This document shows, piece by piece, positions 2,706-35,658 of a DNA stretch of 64,000 nucleotides. The stretch is taken from contig NC_039359.1 in NCBI RefSeq assembly GCF_003573695.1, forward strand, positions 92,165,385 through 92,229,384, given 5' to 3'. The notes below the pieces were generated by a model. That model had not been told where the DNA came from. It saw only the letters and a program-made list of their open reading frames with translations, and ran no database searches. How positions within the stretch are numbered: position 1 is the first letter of the stretch; every line of letters starts with the position of its first letter. This stretch comes from Papaver somniferum. Taxonomy: Eukaryota > Streptophyta > Magnoliopsida > Ranunculales > Papaveraceae. The position numbers and the translations under genes are program-made.

Positions 2706-2719
2706 CCTATTTTAAAAAT

Positions 2720-4007
2720 CCTGGCCAAATTGGGGTATGCCCAGATTAATTGGGGTATACCCATTTTGTTCCTAACCATAATAGAGGGTTAAGAGGTGTC
2801 TAATATGTGCAAAGTTACCTAATTATCCTTTTCCTAATAATAACCAAAACTATCCCTTTTGGGTTTTAGATCAAAACCTTATTAATTTCTTTCCTTCTCC
2901 TTCATCATCAATCTAATGATCAATTCCTTTCTCCTACTCTATATTTCATTGTTTTCAAATGAAAAAATATCGTTGATTATGATTATTTTTTTATTGTCGA
3001 TTAATCCTTTCAAACTCGTTCTAATACTTTGTTTTGTTATTTGAATGACAAATTAGATCAGAAAATTTAAAATTGTTGAATTGTAGTTACACAGTCGGCA
3101 TGGTATTTGTTTGTCGAGCACACCTACTTTTCATATTTATTTTTAGTCGGCAAGCTTATAGGATGAATAACATGCCGACTTTTCATATTAATTTTTTAGT
3201 CGGCAAGGTTATAAGATGAATAACATGCCGACTTTTCAAAGAGTTTTGTTTCTGAAAGTAATATTTACAGGGTCGGCACAATATTCATCCTTATACCTTG
3301 CCGACTAAGAACTTGAAAATTTGAACCTTGCCGACTAATTATGCATTTGTAACACCTTTATCTATATGTCAAAAATCTTATAGTCGGCAAGGTATTTTTT
3401 GTCGACCTTGCGGACTATAAGGTGGCCGGCAAGGTAAAAAATCAATAAGATGCCGACATGTGAAACATTTACAACATTATCTTGTGTGTCAAAAATAATA
3501 AAGTCGGCATCTTCTTCATTCACCGACCTTGTAGGCCGCATATAGTCGGCATGTTATTCATCCGTAGACCTTACCGGCCAGATATAGTCGGCATGATCTT
3601 CATTCGTCGACCCTGCCGACTTTTCATAGTTTCAGAACTGAAAGTGTTGATTTCTTCCTTAATTTTGAGTATGATTTCACACATCAGCTTTGCAATCCCT
3701 TTTTTAGAAGTGCTTGGGTAGTATGTTTTCATTTCCGTTGCAAAAAAAAATTCTCAAAACAAATTTTTTCATCAAAAATCTTCCCACACGAGTTCAATCA
3801 AAAACAAAATTTGATAACTTAAATTCATAAGTTTTAATCTACTTAATTAATTCATCTAAACTCAATTAATTAACCTAATTAGAATTTTTAGTGTTAATTA
3901 AACAAGGGTATATTAGCCATTTAGAAGATACAAGGTTAAGGGGTGGCCTGTTTTGCTTCAAAATGACCTGGATTTTGTCTCATTAGGTATACTTCAATCA
4001 AGCCAGG
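2720..4007. mobile_element. TIR element A with an internal GTCGGCA array
   Basis: A 1288-bp element with imperfect terminal inverted repeats: the left end starts CCTGGCCAAATTGGGGTATG, and the right end read on the minus strand starts CCTGGCTTGATTGAAGTATA. It is flanked by the perfect 8-bp direct repeat TTAAAAAT at 2712-2719 and 4008-4015, read as a target-site duplication. It encodes no protein that I can see. The middle holds an inverted-motif array (separate entry). A block near 2990-3010, read on the minus strand, contains ATTAATCGAC and matches blocks in elements B and D, so A lies in the opposite orientation to them. Superfamily is uncertain: 8-bp duplications suggest hAT, but the termini are not hAT-like. 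Confidence 0.85.
3094..3620. repeat. Array of ~34-bp inverted-pair units, arm GTCGGCA/TGCCGAC
   Basis: Fourteen exact copies of the 7-mer GTCGGCA or its complement lie in about 530 bp, with several one-mismatch copies. They pair as GTCGGCA - 20 bp - TGCCGAC. Exact 34-bp units lie at 3146-3179, 3199-3232, 3272-3305 and 3587-3620; units with one degenerate arm lie at 3383-3415, 3424-3457 and 3545-3578. The spacers resemble one another (ATAAGATGAATAACA-like) but are not identical. See element A and the findings. Confidence 0.9.
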
Positions 4008-4030
4008 TTAAAAATGAATCTATTTTTCTT

Positions 4031-5310
4031 CAAGCTTATTATAGGGGCGGCATGGTTTATTAGAGGAGCGACATTCTAATAGGACAAAAAGGGTCATTAC
4101 ATAATCATTCAAGGTGTTCCTTATAAAAAAAAAACTGGAAATGACAAATTAACCCTCATTATTTATAACCTAGTTTAGTGATGATAATCAAGTTTAGTGT
4201 TAATGATTAATTTCACTTATATTAACTCAAAATCAAAACAAAACTAGATTTTTAGAGTTAAAAAAAAAGTTCAGAGGAGAAGAAAAAGAAAAACTTTTGT
4301 GATATTTGTGAAACCCTAGATTTTGATTCACTCAACCAAAATGAGTGATTCCAGTGACTCAGTATACTTCTAAATTAGTTCCCGTTAGCTTTTTCTCGCT
4401 CAAAATTATCTAAAGTACGTAACAAAATCAAAACTTTTAAATTTTCAGAAGAACTTACGGTTGCAATTTTTCTCGTGACCAACAATAACTCTTAGATACG
4501 GTTCGTAAGTTATGGAATACCAACCATAACTGGTTAAATTTGGGGAAGATCCAATCGTAAAACCAGTTACGGTTGATAGTTAAATTTGGACAACAACCGT
4601 AATTAAATTACGGTTGGTAACTAATGAATCGAGACCAACCGTAACCACCCTACGGTTGGTGTGTCAACTTAACTTTTGAACCGTAAATCATTATTTGATA
4701 AATTCTCAAGACACAGGATTATTTACGGTTGGTATGGTTGTTTGAGTAACAAACCGTAACTCAATTACGGTTGATAAATATGATGCAAATACAAGCCGTA
4801 ACTGAACATATTTCTCAAAACTAAGAACTTACGATTAGTATTTGAGTTAAAACCAACCGTAACATCAACCCATTCTACAGTTACGGTTCGTATTTGAGTT
4901 ATTACCAACCGTAACTCACATGCAACCAGTAATTTCAATTTCAATCTTCATACAAACCTCTAATTTTTGATACAAAACTAACTTAAATCCAACACGATAA
5001 ACTAAACCCTAACTAGGTTTTTCCAAACGTTTTTCAAATCGCCGATTAATCGAAGACGATGAAATTTTCAGTTTTAATTGAGGTTACGCTTGATGGAGGA
5101 GAAGAGAAGATGAAGAAAAAGATGAAAAAAAAACTGATTTGATTTTTTCTGATTCATTAGGTTTAAAAAAATTGATTTGATTTTGGTTGATTTAAGGTGA
5201 AAAGGATAATTTAGTCAATTTACATCCCTTCAAGACATCCCTAACCAACTAAATGGACATTATTATTACAATGTCGCCACTCTAATAATGACGCCCCTAT
5301 AGTAAGCTTG
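4031..5310. mobile_element. TIR element B with an internal TTACGGTT array
   Basis: A 1280-bp element. The left end is CAAGCTTATTATAGGGGCGG, and the right end read on the minus strand is CAAGCTTACTATAGGGGCGT; the imperfect inverted repeat continues for about 50 bp (TATTAGAG, GCGACATT). The perfect 8-bp direct repeat TTTTTCTT lies at 4023-4030 and 5311-5318. No coding sequence is recognised. Downstream of the array are an ATTAATCGA..GATGAAA block (about 5045-5070), a purine-rich GAGGAGAAGAGAAG stretch and an AAAAGGATAATTTAGTCAA stretch, all of which have counterparts in D (and in A, inverted). Only 23 bp separate A from B, so two members landed almost side by side at the LINE 3' end. Confidence 0.87.
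4455..4914. repeat. Array of nine 34-37-bp inverted-pair units, arm TTACGGTT/AACCGTAA
   Basis: Successive units, outer edge to outer edge: 4455-4488 (34), 4496-4529 (34), 4567-4602 (36), 4608-4644 (37), 4650-4686 (37), 4723-4759 (37), 4765-4801 (37), 4829-4862 (34), 4881-4914 (34). The left arm is TTACGGTT, often extended to TTACGGTTGGT; the right arm is AACCGTAA. The first two right arms and a few others carry single changes. Units are separated by 5-40 bp and their spacers differ. Confidence 0.92.
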
Positions 5311-5472
5311 TTTTTCTTAGCGAAAAACAAAAAATTGGTAGAACCGAAAGAAAAATAAACATAAATAAAATAATTACACGTCGGTTGTGACTTGTGAAAC
5401 TGTTTATGATACTTCTGTATCCCGGAGAAACCCTAATTCTGACTCTTGACCAAATATTTCCCGCTCTCACCA

Positions 5473-5514
5473 TTCCCTCTGCCTCTCGAGAAATTCCCTC
5501 TGCCTCTCGAGTAA
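5473..5514 (+). repeat. Tandem 21-bp duplication in a probable 5' UTR
   Basis: ATTCCCTCTGCCTCTCGAGA occurs twice, head to tail, with one difference at the end. It lies about 290 bp upstream of the ATG at 5801, in CT-rich sequence that resembles a plant 5' leader. Confidence 0.7.
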
Positions 5515-5800
5515 CCTTTAATAGAAGTACTTGCTTTTAACTCGTTGTAACCACAAACCAACAGGTATGGAATTTTTAGATTTCTTCTAATTTAACTGAG
5601 ATTTGATTTCAGTGAGTTTTAGGGCTTTTTGGTTTTGTCTAAGATTCGTACGGAGATTTTGGATTTAGGGCTTGTGATTTGTTCTTCCTTCTCTATGCCA
5701 ATTAGGTTTTACACATTGATGCTTTTCTAAGTATACAAATGCTTTTCTGAATTTGGGTTTTAATTTTGAAGAAGAAGAAGGTGTTTGATTGAATTCCGCT

Positions 5801-7549
5801 ATGGAAACTGCATCGCATGTGACGAAAAAGATGGGTGAGCTTAACCCAAAATACATAGATATAGATTTTCCACCACATGATCTGCATATGGAAGAAGACT
5901 CTGACAGGTATGTGTATATTCTCTCTTAATTTAATTCTATTGCCATCGATTAATTAGTATTATAATTGCTTTTATTCATGCGAATTGTGCATTTTTTCTT
6001 TTATTAATTAGTACTATACATTCTCTGTATTAGTGAAGAAGAAGTTTGGATTTCAAAGTCCCCCAAGAGAAGAGATTTAAGTAATATGTATGTGGCGGGA
6101 GAGGAAGATTTTTCTCCTCAGGAACTCGGTCCATGCACTCTGTCCGTGTGGAATTACAAGAATGGCAAAACGGTGGGTTGTTTTTAGTCAGGTCTTCACA
6201 GAAATAATGAGATATGCTTAAGTTGTTACTTTTTGAGATTTCTTAGCTGATAGATGAATGATACCCTATTATGCATAATAGGTAAAACAGATTATGAATG
6301 TAATCCAGTCGAATCATGGTCAATAATACCTGGTCCTTGTCATGACAAAATCTTGTTCTTCCATATTTCCTACATTTTCATTCTTCCATGTTTCTTACAT
6401 TTTCATTCAGAGGAGTGAACATCCTGGTCATGACAAAATCTCAATGTCATGCAGCTAATGAGTTTTAGGTTTAGAAGAAAAAATAATACACTTGCATTCA
6501 TGGACATAAATTCATCTTTAAGCCCATAAGTCTATGGTAGATGGTAATATATGGCCTTTCTAGTGGGGGTGCATCTACAGATTATGAGAGCCAACTGAAA
6601 TGCATCATCAATTTACAATTTACTAGTCTATGGTCATACCTCAAAAATCTTCAGATTTCTCTTTTAAATTCATGTTTTTAGTATATATGTTGGTGTATTA
6701 CAATTTACTTGTTATTGTGATACAATACATTTGTATTTTATCATGTTTTTGATGTATCTGATATTGTTGTTTTCAATGTTATCTTATCAATGAAAAAGAG
6801 GGTTACCTCTTCCTTCAGAAAAAAAAAATACATCATCAAATGGTAAAACAATTTGTAATCATCAAATGGTAAAAATGCATCATCAAATGGTAAAACAAGT
6901 AAATCTAAGTATCGTATAATAGTTTAGGCAAGTATCTAACAATGGCTAAGTATGACCAATAGCTGTAAGGTGTGAGGAAACTTAAACCTAAATCTGACAT
7001 TTCTCGTTGACTTCTCTTTTGCGTTTGTACGTTTGCTATGGGAATGAAAAAAGCAATCATACGTATGGTATGGGAATGAGAAAGGCAACTTGGGCTTTTC
7101 ATGGGATGCAAAGCTCGTTTGTTTTTTAATTTGGGCTTGGAAAACAGAAAGGGGATTTTGGGTGGGCAAGGCTAGGCAATTGATTATAGATGACCTTTTT
7201 ACTCATCACAATTACATCGTCATGTAGTTGTCCGTATTTTTGCATATGTAGCAGCAAATTGGAATGGCTTAACATAAACGTACTGTTATAACTTTTGCAG
7301 GAGATGGCCACTCTGAAGGGTAAGTATAAAGTAGCTGATAGAAACCATTCGACCAATTGGGGTTCCTGGAGGAAAGATCATCAGCGAGGTTTCAAGGGAT
7401 GGAAGCAGGTTACAGGGAACAGTTATTGCACAAGAACTGCTGCAAGTCACCAAAAAAGAAGAAGAAAGCAACCTGAAGCTGATAGGTTTGAGGATGTCGA
7501 AGCTCTCATAGGTGAGTACTTCAGCTTTGCCAATCTTCTCAGTGCATAA
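5801..7549 (+). CDS. Probable multi-exon gene, unknown protein (3' end uncertain)
   Basis: Three open segments join in frame across GT-AG introns. Exon 1 is 5801-5907 (METASHVTKKMGEL..., donor CAG|GTATGT). Exon 2 is 6034-6172 (SEEEVWISKSPKRRDL...). Exon 3 is 7301-7511 or, if read through, to the stop at 7549. The phases match (107 nt, then 139 nt, ending on a codon). The product starts acidic, has a Ser/Asp/Glu cluster (EEDSDSEEE) at the exon 1/2 junction and a basic run (HQKRRRKQPE) near residue 135 that could be a nuclear signal. I recognise no family. The donor at 7512 (GTGAGT) allows further exons; see 8452-8699. A 5'-UTR intron starting near 5565 (CAG|GTATGG) is possible. The exon structure and a composition unlike the surrounding repeats argue for a real low-copy gene. 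Confidence 0.6.
6611..6830 (+). mobile_element. Possible short LINE 3'-end insertion in intron 2
   Basis: The sequence ends TCTTATCAATGAAAAAGAGG then TTCCTTCAG and a run of A, like the 3' ends of L1 elements elsewhere in this window (compare 9930-9975). CATCATCAA occurs at 6603-6611 and 6831-6839 and could be a short target duplication. No coding sequence is present. CATCAAATGGTAAAA is then repeated three times just downstream. Confidence 0.4.
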
Positions 7550-8451
7550 AGACGTGGAGTATCATACAGAAAACCTGCAGCAACAGAGGAGCTTGCTCCA
7601 TGCATTGTTATGTCTGTTCTTCCTTGCTATAAACCTATTCTTCAGAATTTTCACTTGTTTCTGTCACACATTGATAGAGGAAGCACCTCATCTCGAGCAG
7701 TGTATGGAGAGTCGGTATCAAGATCCACTAGAGTCTTTATTTTTTTCTCATTCGTTGTGTATGCCCATAATTATTTTGTGGGATTTGCATCCCGTCTTTA
7801 TGGAGATGGAGATGCTTGAAAAGCTGGGCTTCCACCAGCTGAGGTCGTTGAAGATGGGAAGGTAAATCCTCGTTTCCCTCCGTGTCTGTCTTCTGCAGCT
7901 TGATGCCAAGTTTTGGTTGGTTCGTCTCTTTATAATGTTTTCGAGATTCTCCGCTTGTTTGGACAAGAGATTCGTGCCTGTATTTTGTTAGATGTTTTTC
8001 ATCTATACTAATATATATCCATGTGCTTCGTATTTTCAAAGGTGCATGCATGAAGAAGTTCAAGACACATTTACGATGCCTGACTAGATGTAGGTGTAGT
8101 TTTGCACCAACGCCCCATCTCAAGTATGCTTTTTGTTTTCTTTCTTTCCCCCTTCAAACTTGGTTAATTACTGTAATTGGGATTGTTAGAGAAGTGAAAT
8201 CATTTTGGTCCATGATCAGGTTGGGCTTCAAACTTGTCTCTTGTTACATGTATATATTTCTTCTCTGGAAGAGACTATTTTAGAACAATGATTTGGTTTA
8301 ATGTCGTTGTATGAACCATACCAGACACTGAACTTCACTAATTTTGCTGATGTAGGATATCTTGACCAAGTTACCTTTGTTTGACATGAATCAAACCTCT
8401 TTCTACTTCTAGTTTGTTTCTTGATTAATGATTTCCTTTTTCTAGTTCTAG

Positions 8452-8699
8452 CTGGCGCACGGGCTCAGATTGGTTTTCCCAATCAAAAAAATTCTGGTAA
8501 ATTTTCATTTTCTTGAAGGATCTTGCTATGTTGTCTTTCGCTTTGTTTTTTGGCGTTGTTACATTTTGAGCTTAGAAATTCTGGCTTCAACTCTGGTTGC
8601 TTTCATCATGATGCCAATTAGTGTGTTGTGCATTGAATGTAGGATAAAACCCCATATAAGATGTTGGGTGTGACTGGTGCTACGAAGGTGCTCAATTGA
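8452..8699 (+). other. Candidate terminal exons of the 5801 gene
   Basis: An open segment 8452-8496 lies between an acceptor (TTCTAG) and a donor (GTAAAT). A second, 8643-8699, follows an acceptor (GAATGTAG) and reads DKTPYKMLGVTGATKVLN then stop. The second has protein-like composition and could be the last exon of the gene starting at 5801. Exons linking 7511 to here are not resolved, so this is a suggestion. Confidence 0.3.
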
Positions 8700-8967
8700 A
8701 ATGTTATATAAATTGCTCTAGAACTACACCTCAAGGGTACTTTATTAATTACCGTAGTTGGGGATTGTTAGAGAAGTAAAATCATTCTGGTCCATGATTA
8801 AAATGGTATTCCAACTTGTCTTTTGTTACATGTATATATTGCTTGTTTGGCAGACTATTATTTTAGAACAATGCTTTGGTTTGATCTCGTTGTATCAGAC
8901 ACTGAACTTAACTAATTTTACTGATATAGGATGTCTAAACCAAGTCACCTATGTTTGACACGAACCA

Positions 8968-9928
8968 GAAAATAAAACACTTTCTGTGGAAGTGTATGCA
9001 GGACTGTGTTTCTGTTAGAAGCAAAGTTTCTAGGTATGTTTCTGCTATTCCTAGTGAATGTCCTTGTTGTCATAGGGATACTGAAACTTCAAGCCATCTT
9101 TTCATTGATTGTGAGATTACTAAAAGACTGTGGTTTGCCTTAGACTCTAATATTGCAGGTAATATTGGTAATATGAATATGCAGGAATGGATTACTAGTT
9201 GGTTTCAACCTACTGGTAATCAAAGAGAGGTTCAGGTGAATTTAATCACTTTTGTTGGCTTTGCTATTTGGCAAATATGGAATCTCAGATGCAATGTTGT
9301 TTTTAACAATGCACAAGTTCAGGTGAACAATCTGGTAAGTCAGGTTAACAATGATGTCAATGAATGGAATGCAAATTCCATGAGAATATTAGCAGGTAGA
9401 AATAATACAGGGCAGAGCAGAATTGTAACACCATGGAGTTTACCAGTTAATGGTTTTCAGAAATTGAATTTTGATGCAGCTTTCCTGAAAGACAGTAGGT
9501 ATATGGGAATTGGACTAATTGCTTTTAATGATGCAGGAATTCGTAGGGGTGCTCAATCAATCCATGGAATAGCGAATGATGAGGAGCAGGCTGAGGCCTT
9601 GGCAGCACTTGCAGCAATAAAGTGGGCGAAGGCTGAGGCAGTGCAGAATCTGCATTTGGAGGGTGACTGCCTGAATGTAGTGAATGCCATAAATGGTAGT
9701 TTAGGATCTGTCAAGTGGACAAATAATAATGTAATCCAGGATTGCAGGAAGTTGTTAGAAGGTTTTACGAATTGGATATGCACATTTGTGCACAGGGAAT
9801 CAAATGAAGTAGCTAATAACTTGGCCAAAAAAGCTAGGAATCTTAGAACTTCTGAAACTTGTAACTCTGTACTTCCACTATGGTTGAAATCTCTTATAAG
9901 AGATAAACTCAATGTAAACCTTGATTAA
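8968..9928 (+). CDS. LINE ORF2 C-terminus: zf-RVT and RNase H (partial)
   Basis: Open to TAA at 9926-9928; the frame continues 5' into host sequence (ATG at 8951), which is not part of the LINE protein. The zinc-binding region has CPCC and HLFIDC. The RNase H part shows NFDAAF (first Asp), QAEALAALAAI (Glu) and EGDCLNVV (second Asp). The usual fourth acidic position (VAD-like) reads NEVANNLAKKA, so an Asn stands where Asp is common. In full L1 elements this region follows reverse transcriptase and removes RNA from the hybrid. A stand-alone product is unlikely. Confidence 0.85.
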
Positions 9929-9975
9929 TTCTATCAATGAAATTATTTCTCTTTTCCTATTAAAAGAAAAAAAAA
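8968..9975 (+). mobile_element. 5'-truncated L1-type LINE with near-perfect target duplication
   Basis: A 1-kb 3' fragment of an L1 LINE. It is bounded by ATGTTTGACACGAACCA (8951-8967) and the same 17-mer with one change (9976-9992), and ends in AAAAGAAAAAAAAA. The coding part is unbroken to 9928: a zf-RVT segment (HFLWKCMQDC, CPCCHRDTETSSHLF) and an RVT_3-type RNase H domain. The single mismatch in the target duplication and the open frame suggest a fairly recent insertion. Truncation removed the endonuclease and polymerase, so it cannot move by itself. Confidence 0.95.
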
Positions 9976-10061
9976 ATGTTCGACACGAACCAACCCACTT
10001 TTTATTTCTAGTTTGTTTTTTATTTAGGATTTCCTTTTTCTAGTTCAAATAGGTTTCCTAG

Positions 10062-10195
10062 TTTATATTGATTTCCTTTTTGTGGGTACTTCCTTTTTCT
10101 GGTTACGATGCTTTTAGGAAACAGAAACCTATTTTATATTGATTTCCTTTTTGTGGGTACTTCCTTTTTCTGGTTACGATGCTTTTAGGAAACAA
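10062..10195 (+). repeat. Tandem 71-bp direct repeat, about two copies
   Basis: A 71-bp unit (TTTATATTGATTTCCTTTTT ... GCTTTTAGGAAACA) is repeated at 10062-10132 and 10133-10195 with almost no differences, so it is a recent tandem duplication. Confidence 0.9.
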
Positions 10196-10605
10196 TGAAG
10201 CCTACATAACAGCATTGTAGAATTCTATATATCCAACATTGATTTTATCAAAGTTATCTTATTCTATGCTTCCTAACCCTTCTAGTTTGGGGCCTAGGCC
10301 AATTATTGGATCTGATTATTTTTTTCGAAAACACCAATCCAGAATCGGTTGAAGCATGCATAGATAAAATCCGATTCTAATAATCAAATTTGAGTTCCCG
10401 TATAAGACGATTGTCACCTTTCCATAAGAATTCTTTTTTAGTTTATTTCATATCTATTCCTTTTCGTAGGAATCACGGATTGCACTTAGCACGTGCATCA
10501 AGCATTTGAACTCTTAAGTAACCTTAGTGGACGAGTTATAGTCTCGTGAGGGAGGGTTTACATAGAGAACCACCCACTAAACCTACACAAAAAATTCTAA
10601 AACCA

Positions 10606-11090
10606 TCAATCTTCGTCGGAGGAATCCGAGTCCCATTCACCCACCATAAAGTCCGGGCCGTACTCCGAAATTTTGGATAGCTTTCATCGAATGTTAATGC
10701 TTCCCCCTTTTCCTCCAAGTAGCGCGCTTTCACGGCTTCATGCTACAAAAACACGACACACGCTCACTTTGTTAGTTACAAATTCATAAAAGTAGATTAT
10801 GTAGAATAAACCCTAAAAATACTTACAAATTGTTGAAGGGACATGCTAAAGTGGCAAGCGTTCAAAATCCATTGTTGGATAGCTATAAAGGCAACTATCG
10901 CATCTAGGATGAATTGGTGCCTATCATGGATTTGTTAAAAAATTGTTCTATTCGGGTTCTCATAATCTTTCCTAAATTTGTTATATATCTTTGCCCAAAA
11001 GCTCTCGAACGAGGAGTGATTTTGAACTCGACTTTCGACGTACCATGCTCTGGTGAGTGCCAAATCTTCCGCGGAGTCAAACGATGTCAT
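10606..11090 (-). pseudogene. NAM-associated / Myb-SANT-like domain protein, broken
   Basis: Exon 1 runs 11090 to 10827 and begins MTSFDSAEDLALTRAW; the pattern ED.AL.RAW...FW.KI...F is that of the plant proteins annotated as NAM-associated C-terminal or glutathione S-transferase T3-like, which are related to PIF/Harbinger ORF1 DNA-binding proteins. A GTAAGT donor (10826) and a TTGTAG acceptor give an intron 10743-10826. Exon 2 encodes HEAVKARYLEEKGEALTF. Two lesions are seen: an in-frame TAA near 10938 just after NRTIF, and a 1-bp loss near 10670, after which another frame gives an acidic tail (GEWDSDSSDED, stop at 10606). The family is thought to bind DNA; whether this one binds the surrounding motif is inference. 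Confidence 0.75.
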
Positions 11091-11186
11091 TTCTTGTACG
11101 TGGAGGTATGAAATGATTAGTCGTGGAGTATATGGAGTGAGAGGGGAATGAGAAATTTTGGGGAAAAATGGGTCTGAGGACGAGGT

Positions 11187-11200
11187 CTCTATATATAGAG
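11187..11200 (-). promoter_or_regulatory. TATA box of the NAM-like gene in element C
   Basis: CTCTATATATAGAG, a perfect palindrome, lies about 100 bp upstream of the ATG at 11090 on the minus strand, followed by a pyrimidine-rich leader. Position and sequence suit a plant TATA box. Confidence 0.6.
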
Positions 11201-11620
11201 CAAGACACCAATGACTAGTTTTTTTGAAAAAAAATGAAATAATTTGGAACAATCGATATTCTCGAATGTCCATAAAAACCAATTGTGTTTTCATGCCCAT
11301 TAGAATCGGTCTTTATGGTTGGCAACATAAATCGATTGTGCCTGAAAATCAACAAACAAAAAAAAGAACTTTCAACCAACATTACTCGGTTTATATATTT
11401 GTAGACGTAGTATGATTCTAACTAGAAAAAGATACAGAAAAAATGACATATCTGAGGCATTGAGAATCAGATTATACTTACATCCACATAATTGTGTGCC
11501 TGTATTTTTGCAAAACAAAGTTCGAAGCCTGCATAAACTTGTTCTGCATTTTTCAAACATAATAATCCAAACCATAACCTAAATAATTCAAACTTAAATA
11601 TTTATGATAATAGAATGTCA

Positions 11621-11991
11621 TCAAGGATCACCAACACCAACGTCATTTCCAGCTCCAGCACCACCGGTATTGGCAGCTGCAACAACATCACCGACATCGG
11701 AAACAACATTTTCAGCAGTACTCGCTGCAACATCAATGGACATTTCTTCCCACAGGGTATCATCCTCAGCGTCCGCCACCCTACGCGCTCCAATTTCATT
11801 CCTCCTCTTTCGGCAAATCGAATGACCTCAATCAGCTCTTCCATTGAAAGCTGGTCCAAAAGTTTCGACGCCTGCTCCAACTTGGTCTCCCTTCCAAAGG
11901 CGAACTTGTACATGCTCCTTTCCACGATCTCATGTTTTCTGGCACCATCCTATTTCTCCATGGGGCGGTTAAAGAAGCTCAGAAAGTCCAT
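11621..11991 (-). pseudogene. Unrecognised protein of element C, broken
   Basis: Starts at ATG 11991 (MDFLSFFNRP), meets an in-frame TAG after PMEK, and continues ERSMYKFAFGRETKLEQASK and LDQLSMEELIEVIRFAE. A 1-bp shift near 11810 moves the frame to GARRVADAEDDTLWEEMSID and an Ala/Gly/Val-rich acidic tail ending at TGA 11621. The first half looks helical and charged; I know no family. It lies upstream of, and on the same strand as, the NAM-like gene, so both may once have been element genes or captured host sequence. Confidence 0.5.
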
Positions 11992-12019
11992 ATCTACAAC
12001 AACAAAAATCAAACCACAT

Positions 12020-12398
12020 AATCGGTTTATAAAAAAAATACATGTAATCCGATTCGAACTTCAAAAACACACTGGGAAATAAACACAATCGGTTTATGTA
12101 CTACATATATAAAAACCGATTGCGAAATGGGATCTGAAGAGACAACATCACAGTCGGTGTATTGACATGCAAATAAAACCCGATTGAGGGATCGCAGAGC
12201 TAAAAAAAAATGCTACCTAGAATCGATTTATGCTAATGCACTTATAAAACGATTCTGGTGATGTCTTTTCATATTCAGATTTCAAACCCAGAATCGGTCG
12301 ATGCTAATCATCATATATACCGATTACTCTGCATGCTCTTCATGACCGAAGAGCAAAACACAAAATCGGTTTAAACGATATGTCAACATAAACCGATT
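12020..12398. repeat. Main array of 34-35-bp inverted-pair units in element C, arm AATCGGTT/AACCGATT
   Basis: Units: 12020-12054 (35), 12087-12121 (35), 12152-12185 (34), 12221-12254 (34), 12292-12325 (34), 12364-12398 (35). More units of the same size lie elsewhere in the element: 10343-10376 (34), 11251-11284 (34) and 11304-11337 (34). Some arms carry one or two changes (AATCGATT, AGTCGGTG), yet the outer length stays 34-35 bp. Confidence 0.9.
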
Positions 12399-12909
12399 AT
12401 GGGTAGATCCGAGATTTTGATTTTCAAAAATCGAAGATTTAAACATATAAATCAATGAATAAATGCGAATACTAGAACTGGTTGATGGAGATTTTACTTT
12501 TCTTGGTTGGATTGGAGATCGTTGGAGAAGAATATAAAAAAAAATTGATTAGGTTTTGAGAATTTGGAATGATTAAGATGAAAATAGAAAGTTTTTTTAG
12601 TTTAGGTTTTCATGTTTTTTAATTTTTACTGAAAATTATATGAATTAGTATTTCTATGGGTTAGTTTTAGGAATTAATTTGGCATTAAATTAGACTTTTT
12701 GTTACGTTTGGCACCCTATATCCATTTGATAGAGTTGGGAGAGAAATTTGATAGGCCCAAAATAAATGGCTTAGGTCCCAAACTAGGAAGGATCTTATAT
12801 AGTTAGTGTTTTCTAGTTTTTCTATTCCTTTTGTGAATTTATTGATCTCACATAAGTTTTCATTATATATTGGATCTTTGATCCAAGTTACAAGTTTCAC
12901 TACGTTAAG

Positions 12910-20148: not shown

Positions 20149-20156
20149 ATGTGGGA

Positions 20157-21522: not shown

Positions 21523-22905
21523 GCATATCCAATATAATTGTATCTCTATATATTGGATCTATTAAATCCATGAGGAAAATTGATTTGAATTTATGCTGTA
21601 GAAGTTATATCTTGGATCTATTAAATTCATGGGGAAAATTGATTTGAATTGATGTTGTAGAAGTTATATCTTGGATCTATTAAATACATTTGGAAATTGA
21701 TTTGAATCTATGATTACATTTTGTATTTTGTGTATATGTTTGTGCCTGGATTCATAATCAATCACGTGATTTGGTTTTTATAATGTTTGCATATGTTTGT
21801 GCTGGGTTTGATTTTGTGATAATAGTCCACCGCCTGGAATTTTCTGAAAAAAGAGGAAAAGGAAAAGAATGTTAGCCTATTTCGATCTGTGGAAGTGGTG
21901 ACCGTCCAGGTCTCGATATAACACGGCCAGGTTCAACCCAACTGGGTCTGGTTCAACCCAACTCTGCCAGGTTCAACCCAAATCGGACCGGTTCAACCCA
22001 ACATGTCATGTCCTATTATCCAGTCGTGGCCTGTCCTGTCTTGTGTATATGTGGTGGGAACCAAAGGTTGAGGTATATACTTTATGCAATTTGGAATACT
22101 TATTGGGCTTATGTATTTTTTTCTGGAACATGCTTCGTTATGTTCTTTTTGTCTTAAGATAAGTCCACATTGTATAAACAGTCAATTTAAACTATGACTG
22201 TTGATTTCGATCATTAAGAGTTTTGGTTTTGTTGTTATTTTGAATATGATATTGGCTATAGTTGAATGATGTTTTTCTTTTGTTCAATTGGTTGTACCAA
22301 CTCGATTCAATTGTATTCATTTGGGCTTAGAAGTACTTGAGCGCCATTATTGGATACTTGATATTTTTTCCCCAAATTTGAATGTGATGTGGGATGTAAT
22401 CCATTTGTTGGCATAGTGAAATATGTGCAGAGGGACATGTATCATTAGACAAAGATGTACTTTTGTCTTCGGTAGTAATAACTCCAACACACAAGTATCA
22501 ACCGAACATAGGATCAGCTAAAATGTAACTCTAGCTGATGAGAATGTAATTCTGGCAAAAGGTACCCATGCAAATGGATATCATATGGAAACTCACCGTG
22601 ATGAGAATGTAATTGACTACATCTTTTATAGTCTCTAATGTATTTAGAAGGAAACATATTTTAGAGAAAATAATGAGTTAACATCAGTGAAATGTAAATC
22701 ACTATAGTATTTGGATTATTGAATCCGTATCGACTCCGAGGATGAAAATGTTGGTAATTGACTCATACAGGCTTTGACATAACCATAACGACACTTTGGT
22801 TGTTGGATGATGTTTTGTTTTGAAAGGACTCTCACAAACATCACTTTATTTGAGTGAACGATACAATGGGAAAAAGATTAACAGAACGCGAAGTGACGAC
22901 ATATT
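21523..22905 (+). repeat. Copia interior segment, copy 1 (matches 43250-44615)
   Basis: About 1.38 kb in the same orientation as 43250-44615, starting at GCATATCCAATATAATTG and parting near GTGAACGATACAATGGG...AGTG. Most lines match with scattered substitutions and small indels. No intact reading frame. A GGTTCAACCCAA motif occurs four times at 21931-22000 (two in the other copy). Confidence 0.9.
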
Positions 22906-25515: not shown

Positions 25516-25920
25516 TTAATTATTTAAAAATAAAATGTACTGTATTATTACACCAGGGTTTTTAGTTGGAAACCGAGCGACAAGCTGGGCACCAACCCCC
25601 TTTTGAATTGCAATCCCTAATCTATGGAAAATAAAACTACCAAGACCACTACCAGCATCATTACTAACTAATTTTTTTTTCCAGATGCTTGAAAAAACAA
25701 ACAGTATCATCGCTAAGCTCCCATTAAAGTAGTGAAAGCTAAAACACCCAAACCATAACCATGCGTAACACATTCATTCAAGTATTTAGACCGCTTACAC
25801 GAAATAGCTTTCGAGATGGCCTGGACAGGAACGAAAGCAAGAACTCCAACCCCAGTGAAGGGCGAGACACCTATAACATCCATACAAACGTCTTGACCAT
25901 TTTCCCAGTTGAGAAATACT
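25516..25920 (-). pseudogene. Minus-strand coding relic, possibly part of a repeat-encoded ORF
   Basis: Read from 25920 downwards: NWENGQDVCMDVIGVSPFTG, then ...RSKYLNECVTHGYGLGVLAF, a stop and frameshift near 25705, then SNDAGSGLGSFIFHRLGIAI and QKGVGAQLVARFPTK. The composition is clearly protein-like and it lies against the orientation of the host element. The ending ..GVGAQLVARxPT.. recalls a conserved plant repeat-associated ORF, but I cannot name the family with confidence. It may be an older insertion inside the LTR element. Confidence 0.5.
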
Positions 25921-27690: not shown

Positions 27691-29059
27691 AAATGTTTAC
27701 CTCTTTGATTTTATTTTATCTAGTAAATCTTCTTATGAGAATTTTATTTCTTATGTATTAGGAAGAATAACTAGTTTTTGGAATAGCCATTATTGTGATA
27801 ACACATAGCTATGCCAATGCTTTCATCTTCATTGTTTTAGGTTTATTTGGTTAAATTCAAAAAGTGTTTGGAAGATGATTTTTTTGCAGTATTAATCTTT
27901 ATGGTTTTATATATTGCAATTTATTATGGGATATGTGTGTTTGCATCTGTGAACTATGATTGTCCCATACCTTGTCAAAAGTTAAGTCGTTCATATGTCG
28001 ATATGCATGTATTGACGAAAGAATGAATGGACTTTTGACATTACAAAAGTTAAAGCCTTTATGTCATTTTTTGATGGAAGAAAGGATAAAAATTTTGATT
28101 ACGAGGATTATGTCTATTGTATGTCATTGAAAAAATAGTGATGGAAAATATGATGAATCCTTATTTATTCCACAATATTGATCTTCCCTGATCCATATTT
28201 TATGTATATATTATGCGGATCCGTAAGTTCTCTTGCGTTGAGCATTTCCGATTAAATTAATCACGGGTTTTCTTATGGTTAATTCGATTAAGTATTTTTG
28301 GATTCAAATTCATATTCATATGCGATTTGTTATGTCCAAATAAATCCTTCTTTTCTTGTGAAAATAAGGTCGCTCTTGTTGTTCTTTTGGGAATGACATT
28401 TTATGGGGGGAGTTCTTAATTGAATTTGTGCTTAATTGCCAAATCTTTGTGAGGAGTGTGGCTGTGGAATATTATAGGGGTTATCTTGTATCTTTATAAA
28501 CTCCTTGATGAAAGCATCTAGCTTCGGCTATATGATTGCATTTAAAAAGCTGATATGTGCTTTCTTTTGGTCATGAAATGTCTCTATGGAAATTTTATTA
28601 GGATCCCACTAGTTTTCGTACCTTTTCCAATTTTATCGACAAAAAGGGGGAGAATTAATGTGTAATTCACACTAAAAAATACATATGGTTTTCGGATCAT
28701 TATGTACGGGGGAGTGGTTTCCATGTGAGATGGAGTATTGAATAAGGGGGAGTGATACATATCACCATAGTGTTGTTGTCGAAGTTGTGATATAACTGAT
28801 CTTTGATGTTGTGTAATAATACTATGACACTGTGTAACAATGATTGAGAATTCTTGTTTTCTCATTGTTATAGATACGGATTTTCAACAACGATGATACT
28901 AAACTTACAACCTTTGGAATCATTGGAGTACTTGGAAGTGACGAAGATTTCGATTAATGTTGAAGAACCAAGGAAATCATACATGTGGAAGAAAAGCTAT
29001 AAAAGTTTATTTATTTATTTTGTATTCCATATATATTGATAGTTTTGTCAATTTTATTG

Positions 29060-29073
29060 ACAAAGGGGGAGAT
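29060..29073 (+). other. Polypurine tract of nested element
   Basis: AAAGGGGGAGAT lies directly before the 3' LTR TG, as in many plant copia-type elements, where it primes plus-strand synthesis. Confidence 0.85.
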
Positions 29074-31435
29074 TGTTAGAGCATTGCTCGGTGAACTCGC
29101 ATGCGTTGCTATCTCAAGGATGTTTGTCTATGTTAATGATCAAAACTATAAGTCTTGATTTCTAGTCTACTTATAGCTAAGTCTCGGACTAGGATATGTA
29201 GTTGAGCTCAATACTCCATGGAGATCATCATACAAAGACGAAGAACTACTCAAGGAACTTGTGTAACTTCATTGACTAAAAGGGGAGACTTGAACTTATC
29301 TATCACTCAAAAGTCTATCAACTCTATCTCCCATCTTGAGACAAAAGTCGTATTACTATATAGACTTTGATTATTCACATTTGTTATTTCGATCCGAGTT
29401 TATCTCGCTTATCTATTTATCGAAATATGTGTTGTTAAGCTTTCTCTTTGGCCAAGTTCATCTTTACCAGTGACGAAATTCATATTAGTTTCAATTACTT
29501 GAAAATTGCTTTGACGAAAATGGTTTGTGAACAACGACTATATAACGTCCTCTAAGAATGTTTCAATGATTGAAATGAGAGTTTAGAAAATCTAATCTTG
29601 GAAGGATATAAACATTGTGTGGTAACACACACGTGTGTAAATCCTTATTCCTTGAACCAAAGTATGCGTACTTTGCTGCTCAGGAAAACCAAAACTAAAG
29701 TCCGCGTACCAGTACGCGTACTTTCGGAAGTTTACGTCCCGTGAATTTCTGCTGGAGTTTGTGTACTGGAAACAAACTTATTCCGGGTACTTAAGTCCGC
29801 CTACCAGTATGCGTACTTAAGTTGGTTATTTTCTATAGCCCGTTATTCTTGAACTTTAAATTATATAAACTAAGGAATGCATATTTGGAAACCGTGGCTA
29901 TAAAGTTCATGAATTGATTCGAGTGAATCAAATCTTTTTTGCTTTGATTGTGTCTTGTATACTTCTATAAGATCTAAGCAGTTGAACAAATCTCTAACTA
30001 GTTCATTTGAGTCATTTGAACTAGTTGTGGTAAAGAAGAATATGGTTGATATGGAAGTGCTCATATGGCTAACCATTTGGTTAACTACTGTTGAACCAAC
30101 TAAGTGTACATGTTTAGGTACAGTTACACAAACCTAAATAAACATGCATTTCATTTGTGTGTAACAAGCTAAGTTCGATCTAACGGTTGAAAGATATTAG
30201 CTTGAATCTAATCAGGTTTTCATCTAACGGTGAATATTGAATGCTTCGTTACCAAGGTAACTTAGATTGCAAACCCTGATTTGAAAGCATATATAAAGGA
30301 GAACTCTAGCAACTGGGAAACTTAATCCCCACACCTCCTGTATGATACCAGTTGTATAAGCTAGAGTCGATTCTACTTTAACCTTAGGTTCTTATCGAGA
30401 CCGTGTAGGTTAACGACTTGAAGACTTCATTGGGAACATGAAGCCAAACCCAATTATTTTCTTTGTTTTTGCATGATATGATCTTGCTATTTCTATTGTA
30501 TTTGAGTACAATCGTAATATTGGCTTGAGATTGGTTTCTCTTATAGGCAAGATATAAAAAAAACCACAAACACCTTCGTCTCATCGTTTGCGATTCCGCA
30601 ATATCTTCTTTCGCTAGTCGATTAAGATTATTGTGAGGTGATTGATAATTCTAGGCTATTCTCCGGGAATATAAGTCCGAGTTATCAATTAATTCATGTT
30701 CACCTTGATTTATCAAAAGACTGAACAAAAACTCATAGGTATTTCTGTGGGAGACAGATTTATCTATTCCCGTAGACTTTTCTGTGTGATGCAGATTTGT
30801 TTATTAAAGTCTTCGACTTTGGGTCGTAACAACTCTTAGTTGTGGGTGAAATCAACTAAGGGAATCAAGTGCGTAGTATCCTGTTGGGATCAGAGACGTA
30901 AGGAGCGCAACTGTACCTTTGATCAGTGTGAGATTGATTGGGTTTCAACTAAAGTCCAGATCAAATTTAGTTTGTAGTAGGCTAGTGTCTGTAGCGGCTT
31001 AATGCAGTGTGTGTTCAATCTGGACTAGGTCCCGGGGTTTTTCTACATTTGCGGTTTCCTCGTTAACAAAACTTATGGTGTCTGTATTATTTCTTTTCAG
31101 CATTATATTTTGTTATATAATTGAACTATCACAGGTTGTGCGTTGAATCGATCAACTGGGAAATCCAACCTTTGGTTGTTGATTGAAATTGATTGATCCT
31201 TGAACATTGGTCTTGGGTACCGTTCAAGTAGTTTCTCTTGTATTCAATTAGACTCGCTGATTTTTATTTGCTTGAGTAAGTATTGAATCGAGAAAGTGAG
31301 ATATAAATCTTTGATTTACTTTTATTAAGATTGAGTCTGACTGTCTAGTTGATTCTCTTAAAAGTTTATTAGAGTTAGTCCATACAGATTGCTAAGCGAA
31401 ATATTGGGTGTGGTTGTTAGACCCCCGCTTTTTCA
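29074..31435 (+). repeat. 3' LTR of nested element (2362 bp)
   Basis: Begins TGTTAGAGCATTGCTCGG and ends CCCCCGCTTTTTCA. Contains GGTTTCCTCGTTAAC at 31053-31067, a block also present (inverted) in the solo LTRs at 37078-37092 and 59124-59138. Near-palindromic 24-bp units, GTCCGCGTACCAGTACGCGT plus ACTT at 29700-29723 and a variant at 29795-29818, form its private repeat. Confidence 0.9.
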
Positions 31436-33424
31436 TGTTCCGCTACTTAATTAGCTTGGCAATTACAAAAGGACTTGAAATATAGCATATGTATGTGGTT
31501 GTTACGTATCTCTGAAAGAATCAAGAGATATAAGATATTTACAAAAGTACTTGATAGCCTTTTGTTACCCAATTCAAGTGACTCTAAACCATATAGTGCG
31601 TTTACAATTAGATAGAACACTCACTTATAGATAGAAGCAATCAGGTGGATGTGGTATACCCGTCTAAGTGGCTATTTGATTTAGAGGGTATAGAAAAATA
31701 AGTAATTTTTCCTTACGTATTCACAAGAAAGTTCCTGATTTGGAATTGTATCTATTTATGTCGATGGTACAAACATGATGGGTACTTTTGATGTAATGAG
31801 AGACCTTAAAATCTATTTGAAATCCGAATTTGAGATGAAAAGTCTGGGGAAATCTCGACCAAATACTGAGCTTGTGGTATATTATTCCACCAGTTTGCAT
31901 ATGTCTAAAGTTGTCAGGCAATTTAACAAAGACATGCATCCTGATAGCACTCCCATGATTAGTCGAGGTTCAAATGTAAGTAACTGACCATTTCGTTTAA
32001 AGGAATATGGCGAAGATGTGTTGGGAGATGAAATTCCCATATCTAAGTACAATAGACGCATTGTTGTACTTAGTATAATAATGTACTCGATTAAATTTTA
32101 CATCCTCAGTGAACTTGTTAGCTAGATATAACTCAGCGCCAACACAATGTCATCGGAATGGTACAGTGAATGTAATCATGTACTTAAAAGTAACCATTGA
32201 CATGAGTTTGTTTTATTTCTGCAAAGACATAAAAATGAATGCTAAAGGAACTGCAATCCAAAGGTTGTTGATTATGAAGGAACAATAATCTCTTCTCTAA
32301 CAAAAGTAATCAGGGGGAGATATGGTAGACTATTTTCTAAGTCATTACTGATATTCAGTTTCGAAAAGTACATGACTAAAGGAACTGTCTGGAACAACTC
32401 TGAAAGTAATCAGGGGGAGATGCCGACATCAGGGGGAGGATCCAAGGATATGATATCGACATATTTTACTTCGAAATTGAAGATATGTTGTACTTTTTTT
32501 CCTTCGATCGAGAATAGTTTTTCTCAAAGGGTTTTGTTACTCGAAAAGGTTTTTAGCGAGACAACGCTAAAAAACATCAAGTATGTTGAACATTGAAGAC
32601 ATAAAGATCGCGTTGATATTACTGAAAATATCTGAACCAAATAAATGAAACATGATAGTATGTTAAGCAACATAACTTCCAGAATCAATAACAGGTCTTA
32701 TAAACATTCAAGTCACCAAAGTAATGTGTGATAAACTCCTTTTGACTGCATTAAACTAATGAAAATTGTCTGACATCAGGAGGAGCATCTAATGATGTGT
32801 TGAACTCTTTTCGTTCACCGAAGTTACTTTTTCCCACAGGGTTTTGTTGCTCGGCAAGGTTTTTAATGAGACAACAACAAACACAGGGAATTAACTTCCC
32901 AACTAAGGCTATTGTCTTTCCCACAAGGATTTTATGCCTTAGAAGTTGTGAAGCAACTAATAAACTTCAATGAAGCAAAGTGATCACCTTCAACGGATCA
33001 CTTTTACGTGTATCTGTCACGTTGTACTCTTTCCCCCCCGTCAAGGTTTTGTCCCAATGGGTTTCCTTGTCAAGGTTTTAATGAGGCAACATATTCGAGT
33101 CCAACGATGTTCTAAGTTTGCTTAATATTGTACTCTTTTTCTTTAGTTCAGGTTTTGTCCCTCTGGGTTTTCCTGACGAAGTTTTAACGAGTCAATTAAT
33201 TTAGACTTGTCGGTCTTTGAAGATCATACTGCATGTGATGAACTACATGTAAATTACGAGACAACATGTGAAGTACTACATGTGAAGAGTTGTACCAAGA
33301 TTTTATCCCACTGGGTTTTTCCTTGTCAGAATTTTAGTAAGGCAATTGATTTCGGCATAAGTCATCAAGGAGAAAACGACATTTGAAAAAGCACTATATA
33401 TAAAGTTAAGTTATAGAACCGCAC

Positions 33425-33621
33425 AAGGAGAAATGTTATAGGGCCTATGGCCTATGAATGTGCGGTCCAAAAGGATAATCTTTTGGTCTTCCCTTTTCCA
33501 TGTATATAAAGTATTTATCCATGTAACTATACTAACTCTATTGAATAGAAAATTCTTCTCTCCATGTGTGTGTCTCTTTTTATCTTTTTCTATCTTTCTC
33601 TTTTTATCTTTCTCCATGTTA
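33425..33621 (+). repeat. Polypurine tract and 3' LTR of the copia element
   Basis: AAGGAGAAA (33425-33433) precedes TGTTATAGGGCCTATGGCC. The LTR (33434-33621) shares most of its length with 21185-21355 and is followed by the CACTT duplication. Confidence 0.85.
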
Positions 33622-33626
33622 CACTT

Positions 33627-34240
33627 TGATTATATTTTATGTCCTTGATTATTACAGACTAGCTTTTTTATTGAGGGATAAAGTAGATAAAATTTTCTGG
33701 TATGACCGTATTGCATGCACTTGAATCAGTACAAAACCAAAATAAGCCTTGCTATACCGAGTCCTGACTTGCTTTGGTGTGAAATTCGGTACCAAAATAA
33801 AGTCATTCCTTGTATTGAAATTCAGATCGCAAAGCTAACCAACTGGTCTTACAAAGAAACAAAAATCTTGCTCCTTTTAAGGCATCATTGACATCGAAAT
33901 TGAACCTTAATTTGAGGCCACCACAAGCTCTCCCCTCCCTCTCTAGCTGTCTATCCAATAGTTGGACTAACATACTAGCATACACCCGTATACCATCTCC
34001 AGCCAAGAATTAAGGTCACCAAAGGCAGTCAAGATGTGAAGCATTTTTGTTATATCTCCGAAGGAGTTACAAACAGATCCGTAGGTACACCAATCACCGA
34101 CTGTTCTTGAATGTAGGAATTACCATTATTCTGGATTATCCCCTTTCTTCCCTTGAGATTGTTTATTTTCTTTTAGTTCGTGTCGAGTTTAATTGGACCG
34201 ACCGATCGGAGGGCCTGAAAGAAGGGAGTCCTTTTTATAT
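33627..34240. other. No recognised gene; repeat of copia 5' flank
   Basis: AAAGTAGATAAAATTTTCTG to TGCACTT (about 33671-33731) resembles 21145-21184. A 67-codon minus-strand open frame (34006-33803) has mixed composition and no family that I know; I do not call it a gene. Confidence 0.45.
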
Positions 34241-35658
34241 GAACGATTTTTTGGACACCACTGTTGTTTTTTTTTTTTGGTTCATTGTTTTTTATTTTAG
34301 AAAGATATTTGAAGTAAAACTAAATCACCCATTATCTAAATATTTATAAAAATACCAAAATCATTCTTTTGATTAATTTTGTTTAATGATTAGTTAGTGT
34401 AATCCATGATTGATTAAGGTTAATTTTTTTTAAAGGTTGAATTATTGAGTGACTAAGGTAGTAGAAGAAGATGAAGAAATTTTTTATTTTGAGATGGGTG
34501 AATATGGAGGAAAAACATCCTTTGGGTTCCGAGGTATGTTTGTAACTTAGTTAATGTTGCAACAAATGGCCTAAAATATCTTCAAAATGAAAATTATAAC
34601 AAAAATTTTCAACTAGGTCAACATAGTTCGGTTATATTATACGAAGAACATATAACCGAACTTTCTGCAAATGCAGTTCGGTTAATAAATCCAAAATACA
34701 CATGGAACCGAACATGAACTTTAATGGAGTTTTTGTTTGTTCGTCTAACTGATGAAAAATCAAATGTAACTGAACTACGATGCTTGAGTATACAGAGTTT
34801 TTTTTCGATTCAGTCTTCTCGACCACTTTGTAACCGAACTTTAAACAACAGAGTTCGGTAGGTTCGGAAAATCTGCACGAACCAGTGATTCAGCCGAACT
34901 CTTAGTTTTTCCATGCACTTAAATTTTATAGGTTCAGCGTGATCGCAACATTTATAAAACACTGAAGAACTCATCGTTCAGTTAGCAAAAAAAATTGCGA
35001 CTTAACCGAATTCATTATATAGGTTTTCAGAATAGAGTTCGATTAGGAATTTATTTTTGCGATTTAACCGAACTCAACATTTGTCTATACAAAGAAGAGT
35101 TTGGGTTTGAATTTTTTTGTGACTCAACCGAACTCTGGCGTACGGTTAGGAACAAAAAAAAAATCTTATCCGAAGTGTTCTTCGTGTTCTTCATCTTTAA
35201 AAGTTCGGTTGTAAAACTAGGTTTTTTTTTGCAAATTATCCTAACCGAACTTACTACTGTAACTTCCATATTTGACCTATTTTGATGACTACTACTCAAA
35301 ATTTTAACCAAAAACGAATTAGAAGTAAGGTTTGTGGGAAAATACTTATGGACGGGTTTGTTTACAAAGGATCGATTAATCGACGATGAAAATTCAATGG
35401 ATCGACGATGATAAAAAATTTATGATTTTGATTGGATTTGTATATGATCATGTTTAGATGATCATAAATTGATGAGGAAGAGAAGAAGAAAAATTGTAGA
35501 ATATAGGAAGAAGAAATTGTAGATTAGTTATGATTTTAATTAGGTTAAAGGGTAAACTAGTCATCTCTACCTTTTAGGACACCCATTACAACTATATGGA
35601 AGGTGGCCTAAAAAAATCATGGTACCCCAAAAACACAATGGTGCATAAAAAATCGTTC
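34241..35658. mobile_element. TIR element D with an internal GTTCGGTT array
   Basis: 1418 bp. The left end is GAACGATTTTTTGGACACCA, and the right end read on the minus strand is GAACGATTTTTTATGCACCA; a looser repeat continues for about 50 bp. TTTTATAT (34233-34240) and CTTTATAT (35659-35666) are an 8-bp duplication with one mismatch. After the array come CGATTAATCGACGATGAAAA (about 35371) and GAGGAAGAGAAGAAGAA, matching the same blocks in B. No protein is encoded. Confidence 0.85.
34626..35250. repeat. Array of 35-38-bp inverted-pair units, arm GTTCGGTT/AACCGAAC
   Basis: Units: 34626-34661 (36), 34676-34713 (38), 34739-34775 (37), 34803-34839 (37), 34862-34899 (38), 34932-34967 (36), 34976-35012 (37), 35037-35073 (37), 35099-35134 (36), 35141-35175 (35), and a longer last one, 35203-35250 (48). 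Arms are often GTTCGGTTA and TAACCGAAC; several carry one or two changes. Confidence 0.9.

Follow-up and report, generated by a model that had tools for sequence, protein, structure and literature searches.

Elements A to D, found in a 64,000-nucleotide window of the Papaver somniferum genome (NC_039359.1, positions 92,165,385 to 92,229,384), carry arrays of short half-sites arranged as inverted pairs. From computational comparison, it appears fairly probable that these arrays are dimer-binding sites resembling the targets of VANC proteins, but built as inverted pairs and belonging to Mutator-like elements (MULEs) that bear plant mobile domain (PMD) genes. They could act as private docking platforms for a protein working in pairs, perhaps for escape from plant silencing.

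Half-site arrays in elements A to D

Element A (positions 2712 to 4015) is short and flanked by an 8-bp target site duplication (TSD) of TTAAAAAT (2712 to 2719 and 4008 to 4015). Its terminal inverted repeats (TIRs) begin CCTGGCC and CCTGGCT, and stretches 81 to 83% identical to it were found in loci L001 to L003. Element B (4023 to 5318) has an 8-bp TSD of TTTTTCTT (4023 to 4030 and 5311 to 5318) and the TIR CAAGCTTAYTATAGGGGCG, while element D (34233 to 35666) carries the TIR GAACGATTTTTT and an imperfect TSD matching at 7 of 8 bp (34233 to 34240 and 35659 to 35666). Element C (10278 to 12791) is bounded by a 31-bp TIR of 87% identity (10278 to 10307 and 12761 to 12791); a TSD was looked for at its ends and none was found, and matches to C in loci L011, L009, and L024 spanned only ∼105 bp. 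The initial annotation, which had given the elements TIRs and duplications, holds for A, B, and D and, in the case of C, for the TIR. All four TIRs differ, and similarity between elements was confined to short stretches. TSDs of 8 bp were also present in relatives of these elements (L001/L002, L028, and L034/L025), and a putative one in L014 matched at 7 of 8 bp at best.

The A array (3093 to 3621) comprises 15 (A)GTCGGCA half-sites with at most one mismatch, among them GTCGGCA pairs at 3146 to 3179, 3199 to 3232, 3272 to 3305, 3383 to 3415 (one mismatch), and 3587 to 3620. Half-sites of TTACGGTT in B (4455 to 4914) form convergent pairs with outer lengths of 34, 36, 37, 37, 37, 37, 34, and 34 bp. 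The C array (10343 to 12398) consists of AATCGGTT half-sites, with pairs of 34 to 35 bp at 10343, 11304, 12020, 12087, 12221, 12292, and 12364, and the GTTCGGTT half-sites of D (34626 to 35250) form convergent pairs of 36, 38, 47, 36, 37, and 48 bp. With one mismatch permitted per 8-bp half-site, the totals for A to D were 15, 20, 19, and 16. As first described, all four share a CGG core, and B, C, and D extend it to CGGTT.

Exact 7-mer inverted pairs with outer lengths of 24 to 48 bp numbered 13, 28, 16, and 19 in A to D, with overlapping registers within one pair scored separately, compared with means of 1.1, 1.6, 4.3, and 1.9 and maxima of 4, 7, 9, and 6 for the same count in 30 shuffles of each, confirming the arrays at the places originally reported. 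Strict adjacent convergent pairs of 33 to 38 bp numbered 5, 8, 7, and 4, where random placement expects 0.28, 0.39, 0.20, and 0.29 (p ≤ 1e−4 for each). These are mostly fewer than the 7 to 11 units per element that had been proposed; the proposed fixed outer length was seen in all four elements, although D also has the wide pairs of 47 and 48 bp.

Coding relatives and further motif families

The genome-wide search suggested with the initial annotation, made here for the A motif only, identified 1892 A pairs at exactly 34 bp in the host genome, compared with 1 for a reversed control. In a full-length A-family element, which has an 8-bp TSD, the Mutator-like transposase gene is broken; arrays lie in intron 1 of this gene, 3′ of it, and both within a second gene and on its flanks. 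Among 20 arbitrary stretches of 10 kb, two yielded additional motif families, of which one has a MULE transposase (PF10551) and the other has PMD genes together with a small ORF1 of three helices. Family F was found in L014 using the detector at k = 6 on the 20 arbitrary stretches (200 kb); the remaining rows at this setting were one in L010, taken as chance, and four of satellite DNA in L015. At k = 7, the only rows from the same 20 stretches (200 kb) were those of 23 bp in L016 and of 29 bp in L020. Family E, in L007, came to light only via ORF1.

In family A (L034/L025) and in family F (L014), a MULE transposase gene adjoins the arrays. The PF10551 domain lies at 2853 to 3983 of L014 (5.6e−15), and pieces of this transposase are 30 to 45% identical to that of L034/L025. 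PMD matches (PF10536), all over the cut-off, were obtained in L007 (5e−25 and 1.1e−25), L028 (4e−12), and L027 (3.7e−11). These same PMD pieces (two from L007 and those of L028 and L027) gave weak matches to DUF1985 (5.6e−4 to 0.027), all under the curated cut-off of 35.1 bits. The predicted PMD structure had a pLDDT of 36 and was not used. Genes for transposase, PMD, and ORF1 link A, C, E, and F to one MULE group; no window element is known to hold a transposase. The single family originally proposed is thus partly supported; B and D, which are linked to no coding element, are tied to the group by array geometry and TSD length only.

Pair geometry and competing explanations

Each family has its own half-site of 7 to 11 bp with a CGG core, and convergent inverted pairs predominate over other arrangements. 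Over six families, the CGG..CCG spacing of adjacent convergent pairs was 28 to 32 bp in 138 of 161, 18 to 22 bp in 16, and elsewhere in 7, counts that are not independent because units inside one element are partly duplicates. A supplies 111 of the 161 pairs; with A excluded, 42 of 50 fell at 28 to 32 bp, and this spacing accounted for the majority of pairs in each of the six families. The conservation of spacing across motifs that had been proposed was therefore observed, together with a shorter class, ∼9 bp, not 10.5 bp, from the main class, that is confined to 12 of the 111 A pairs and 4 of the 10 F pairs. In capped counts, the spacing period was 11.0 bp for convergent and 10.0 bp for divergent arrangements.

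Half-sites are central and intronic, distributed along elements as long as 7 kb and not at their ends, and none was found within the 40-bp A-type end sequences inspected. In coding sequence, 3 of 80 half-sites were observed versus 38.9 expected (five loci; families A, E, and F). Among 140 partner sites, the C of the CpG core was altered in 3 and the G in 4 (C>T, 2; G>A, 1), and the position directly 5′ of the core showed 31 T>C changes. Spacing, core conservation, and coding exclusion, with the arm comparison described below, support the suggested selection on a paired site with the geometry of a dimer.

Every unit is an inverted repeat, and hairpins are common in transposable elements; the pairs could instead be RNA or DNA hairpins (small-RNA precursors or cruciforms) retained for their stem. 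The A half-site consensus is GTCGGCA-N-GGT, and in 74 distinct A units the arms past the core were without stem covariation. Arm position 8 paired in 9 of 74 units versus 22.7 expected, positions 9, 10, 12, and 13 paired at expectation, and position 11 was slightly above it (65 versus 61.0, p = 0.0095; 38 of 44 versus 34.9, p = 0.02, with near-duplicates removed). One half-site is also common to all units of an element, a sharing that stems do not need. The hairpin reading was rejected on the covariation test and is considered very improbable. A further explanation is neutral tandem duplication of one functionless inverted unit per element; the initial annotation had named ordinary tandem duplication as a refutation. 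Such ordinary duplication makes up part of A, where tandem repeats have periods of 42 and 53 bp, and near-duplicate units are frequent (the 74 distinct A units fall to 44 once these are dropped). However, spacers have diverged while core and spacing were preserved, the CpG core is kept, half-sites are excluded from coding sequence, and the main spacing is common to six different motifs, leaving this explanation scarcely credible.

In CACTA and hAT elements, subterminal motif clusters are transposase-binding sites, and the arrays might likewise bind transposase for transposition itself, with the internal clusters as additional docking sites. The MULE transposase gene beside arrays in A and F, the arrays kept in short elements, and the 8-bp TSD would fit, but half-sites that are central and intronic, spread over up to 7 kb, and absent from the inspected A-type end sequences would not, and this explanation is regarded as unlikely. 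The cores of MYB and trihelix sites are CNGTT and GT-like, and MYB core sites are similar to the CGGTT of B, C, and D, as if the arrays were enhancers for such host factors with spacing derived from a host dimer. Yet A, E, and F lack CGGTT, and six half-sites, one per family, are more easily explained by element-specific factors, making a host-factor role highly unlikely.

Proposed role, precedents, and ORF1

The arrays, which lie in the noncoding DNA of diverse Mutator-like transposons with 8-bp TSDs, would be clusters of binding sites for a dimer; larger members of the group have a MULE transposase gene or PMD genes plus the small ORF1. Each family presents its private half-site as an inverted pair with CGG..CCG at 28 to 32 bp, in two families also ∼9 bp closer; a shift close to a helical turn would place the two subunits on the same face of the DNA. 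The binder would most likely be element encoded, with the PMD protein, transposase, and ORF1 as candidates, and may mark only the introns and promoters of its own family, which would thereby stay accessible or unmethylated, in the way that VANC acts on VANDAL. The short elements A, B, and D retain arrays and would respond in trans. More tentatively, a large group of PMD-MULEs may have branched into many families that share the pair geometry but differ in half-site, so that every family would have a dimer-site code of its own. A PMD or PMD-like protein would then be the VANC-like antisilencing factor of the element, the PMD would gain a sequence-directed role in DNA targeting, and PMD and DUF1985 would form one superfamily.

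MULEs are marked by TIRs and a TSD of ∼8 to 11 bp. PIF/Harbinger elements have a Myb-like ORF1 protein and a 3-bp TSD, whereas hAT elements combine a hAT transposase with an 8-bp TSD. The former resemble the poppy elements in their small, putatively Myb/SANT-like partner protein but were rejected, given the 8-bp TSD and MULE transposase here rather than a 3-bp TSD and Harbinger transposase; hAT agrees in TSD length but was rejected for A and F because the transposase in their array-bearing elements is that of a MULE. VANDAL elements are MULEs whose VANC protein binds its motif and removes DNA methylation. The closest precedent is provided by these Arabidopsis elements with their VANC antisilencing proteins and motif arrays (PMC5735166 and PMC10398659). 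In the available sections of PMC5735166, VANC motifs sit in noncoding tandem repeats and differ among families, VANC21 motifs are arrayed in a single orientation, and a figure legend names DUF1985 as one of two VANC domains. Both systems share a MULE background, short motifs that are particular to each family and recur in introns and elsewhere in noncoding DNA, related families with different motifs, and arrays partly enlarged by tandem duplication. Unlike VANC21 motifs, the poppy half-sites form inverted pairs at fixed spacing; the coding partners are PMD and ORF1 proteins with no clear DUF1985 VANC, and the elements have TIRs. The original statement that no named plant class was known to have such arrays must be qualified, since VANC/VANDAL motif arrays are already published.

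The available text of PMC5418596 reports PMD in MULEs and PMD fused to transposase in several grasses and Amborella, and its authors speculate on an antisilencing use; that text does not mention motif arrays for PMD-MULEs. The poppy elements also carry the PMD but, unlike those fusions, as reading frames that accompany ORF1 in array-bearing elements. Muta1 and Muta5 of Aedes aegypti, in the excerpted description (PMC5225508), are likewise MULEs with similar TSDs (8 to 9 bp) and repeated short motifs, which many Muta1 derivatives retain. Their repeats, unlike the fixed-spacing inverted pairs here, consist of a unit of 12 bp (Muta1; spacers of 3 to 4 bp) or 15 bp (Muta5) that occurs nine times in tandem inside the TIR.

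If the proposed role is correct, sequence-specific antisilencing, worked out in Arabidopsis VANDALs, would reach a second plant and a group of MULEs that is abundant there, under a site grammar stricter than that of VANDAL (paired, fixed spacing, single motif per family). The host PMD proteins MAIN and MAIL1 act in transposon silencing, and what the domain itself does is described as still to be established (sections of PMC5418596). Fixed-site arrays beside PMD genes would make a DNA-targeting role directly testable, and the families could serve as a natural half-site series for studying specificity change under constant dimer geometry.

By fold, ORF1 would be the likeliest DNA binder. In relatives it is a small three-helix protein, probably Myb/SANT-like; Foldseek gave 59 matches, none at E ≤ 0.001, PDB sequences gave no match, and outside homologues numbered none for the C query and one fragment for the L007 query. 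In C, exon 1 (10827 to 11090, minus strand) has one in-frame stop and a GTAAGT donor (10821 to 10826, minus strand), and the exon 2 remnant (10600 to 10742, minus strand) has a frameshift near its end relative to L001/L026, judged by eye. Exon 1 has 150 scored copies in the genome, with stop-free relatives in L028 and L007. ORF1 was compared with motif type in seven flanks hand-picked from the 150 matches, with types assigned by reading: A-type L036, L037, L039, and L041; C-type L042; and array-less L038 and L040. For L037 the script's totals were 5 A-like and 6 E-like, since half-sites of the GCCGGC form fit both types within one mismatch. L042 has C-type half-sites, yet its ORF1 exon is 89 to 90% identical to those of A-type L028, L026, and L041 and only 76% identical to that of window element C; in a tree of 12 sequences (∼270 bp), it clusters with A-type copies (branch support, 0.81). 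The element-encoded protein drifting with its motif, as initially envisaged, was thus unsupported in its simple version for ORF1, the one candidate tested, in a comparison with two C-type copies only. The leader of L042 appeared C-like by eye, which suggests recombination.

Paired arrays in the window and the genome

The inverted-pair arrays reported by the initial annotation in elements A (2712-4015), B (4023-5318), C (10278-12791) and D (34233-35666) are present as described. Adjacent convergent pairs, that is, a half-site and its inverted copy, with outer lengths of 33 to 38 bp and no more than one mismatch in each 8-bp half-site numbered 5, 8, 7 and 4, respectively, against 0.28, 0.39, 0.20 and 0.29 expected from random placement (p ≤ 1e-4 each). 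Additional pairs of 47 and 48 bp were found in D, and element A carries TIRs and an 8-bp TSD. Immediately outside C, a 71-bp unit is repeated 1.9 times at 98% (10057-10194), and two far-apart 59-bp tandem arrays (21547-21712 and 43274-43441) have almost identical consensus units.

The genome was scanned across 2.715 Gb in 34,283 contigs (window, G000:C2:92165385-92229384), with pairs counted for motif A alone among families A to F. GTCGGCA-N20-TGCCGAC occurred 1892 times and its backward-read pattern once; with spacers of 6 to 34, the counts were 3948 versus 195 for the backward-read control. Thus, nearly half of the A pairs share a single spacer out of 29 possible. The first 50 A pairs among the matches listed had outer lengths of 34 (n = 21), 33 (19), 35 (4), 23 (2), 25 (2), 32 (1) and 36 bp (1). 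Candidates for ORF1, a gene for a small protein with a predicted three-helix fold, numbered 5030 at first look, and the 150 scored all had E values of ≤2.3e-40, with a stop-free match in most. The paired arrays are real, and for motif A and its ORF1 they are widespread in this genome.

Spacing and half-site constraint

Additional motif families were identified in 2 of 20 arbitrary 10-kb stretches, E in L007 (TACCGGCAT half-sites) and F in L014 (TTACGGCTGG). Core-to-core (CGG..CCG) distances between neighboring half-sites <61 bp apart bore out the proposal that different motifs share one spacing, as 138 of 161 convergent pairs from six families lay at 28 to 32 bp, 16 at 18 to 22 bp and 7 elsewhere. 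Family A supplied 111 of the 161; by family, the main class held 96/111 (A), 8/8 (B), 8/8 (C), 4/6 (D), 16/18 (E) and 6/10 (F). The shorter class, found only in A (12) and F (4), lies ∼9 bp from the main one, near yet under one helical turn. Divergent neighbors peaked at 18 to 19, 28, 37 to 40, 47 to 50 and 55 to 58 bp. Best periods were 11.0 (convergent) and 10.0 bp (divergent) with each distance counted at most three times, and 11.0 and 9.5 bp without this limit; all tests gave a p of 5e-4 against uniform distances, which is the floor of the test and optimistic because the copies are related. The natural reading is that half-sites keep to one side of the double helix.

The A half-site is GTCGGCA-N-GGT (74 distinct units; 44 without near-duplicates). 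Across the 74 units, no overall covariation between arms was detected beyond the core. Position 11 was slightly more often paired (65 versus 61.0 expected; p = 0.0095). At position 8, the base after GTCGGCA, the two halves of a unit disagreed in excess of chance (paired in 9, versus 22.7 expected). The CpG changed least in a set of 140 partner sites with up to two mismatches, in which an intact pair contributes from each side (C, 3, of which 2 C>T; G, 4, of which 1 G>A); its neighbors had 32 and 19 changes, and the first, sixth and last bases had 9, 10 and 5, respectively. Only 3 of 80 half-sites (exact 6- or 7-mers; L034, L025, L028, L014 and L007) fell in coding bases versus 38.9 expected, with coding limits taken from ORFs as read by us, some containing stops.

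Elements carrying the arrays

A full-length A relative spans G000:C1 19,015,761-19,022,759 (L034:7762 to L025:5760), with TIRs CCCGGCTAGATTGGG and CCCGGCGAGATTGGGG and TSD TTTGGGAA. It contains an N-terminal exon, a Mutator-like element (MULE) core with several stops, AT-hooks (PF02178) and a second gene on the opposite strand. Half-sites lie in the first intron, 3′ of the transposase, and around the second gene and inside its intron. Putative FAR1-like, OTU-like and SWIM parts were labeled by eye from residues; a Pfam search for them gave no match above the cut-off. In the A-family locus L028, another full-length layout has TIRs at 1071 and 6884, TSD CCAATAAT, a plant mobile domain (PMD) gene (PF10536, 4e-12) and ORF1.

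ORF1 is also present in window element C: its DNA there shares 76 to 77% identity with stretches within A-family elements L026, L001 and L002. This copy has a GTAAGT donor and a single in-frame stop, as well as a frameshift judged by eye. L007 carries ORF1 and two PMD genes. In L014, half-sites lie directly upstream of the main transposase frame (PF10551, 5.6e-15; pieces 30 to 45% identical to the A-family transposase) and others downstream; the upstream ones are read as sitting in a putative intron 1. In the ORF1 flanks L036, L037 and L039, some units seem by eye to be mixed, with GTCGGCA on one side and GCCGGC on the other, so some A arrays may be heterotypic.

Likeness to VANC targets

PMC5735166 reports that the Arabidopsis anti-silencing protein VANC21 binds YAGTATTAY motifs in one orientation in noncoding parts of VANDAL21, that VANC6 motifs differ, and that motif arrays expand through tandem repeat formation. 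The same noncoding regions are reported to be targets of both RdDM and VANC (PMC10398659), and MULEs to have captured PMD genes, with anti-silencing use speculated on (PMC5418596). Array placement and motif turnover in the poppy elements match the VANC/VANDAL system, whereas the poppy arrays are inverted pairs at fixed spacing. The open-licence literature searched yielded no earlier account of MULEs with paired arrays of this kind. The arrays are best read as putative dimer-site arrays of PMD/ORF1-bearing MULEs that would work like VANC targets; protein binding, the binder's identity and an effect on silencing are what we infer.

A 169/840-bp satellite (L015 1-10000; G000:C3:7.00 Mb) has units with ACGAAA..TTTCGT inverted pairs of 34 to 38 bp and is a look-alike in geometry without a link to the array elements. 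L020 (7237-9421) holds 14 CAGTTTC inverted pairs in two rows, with an outer length of exactly 29.
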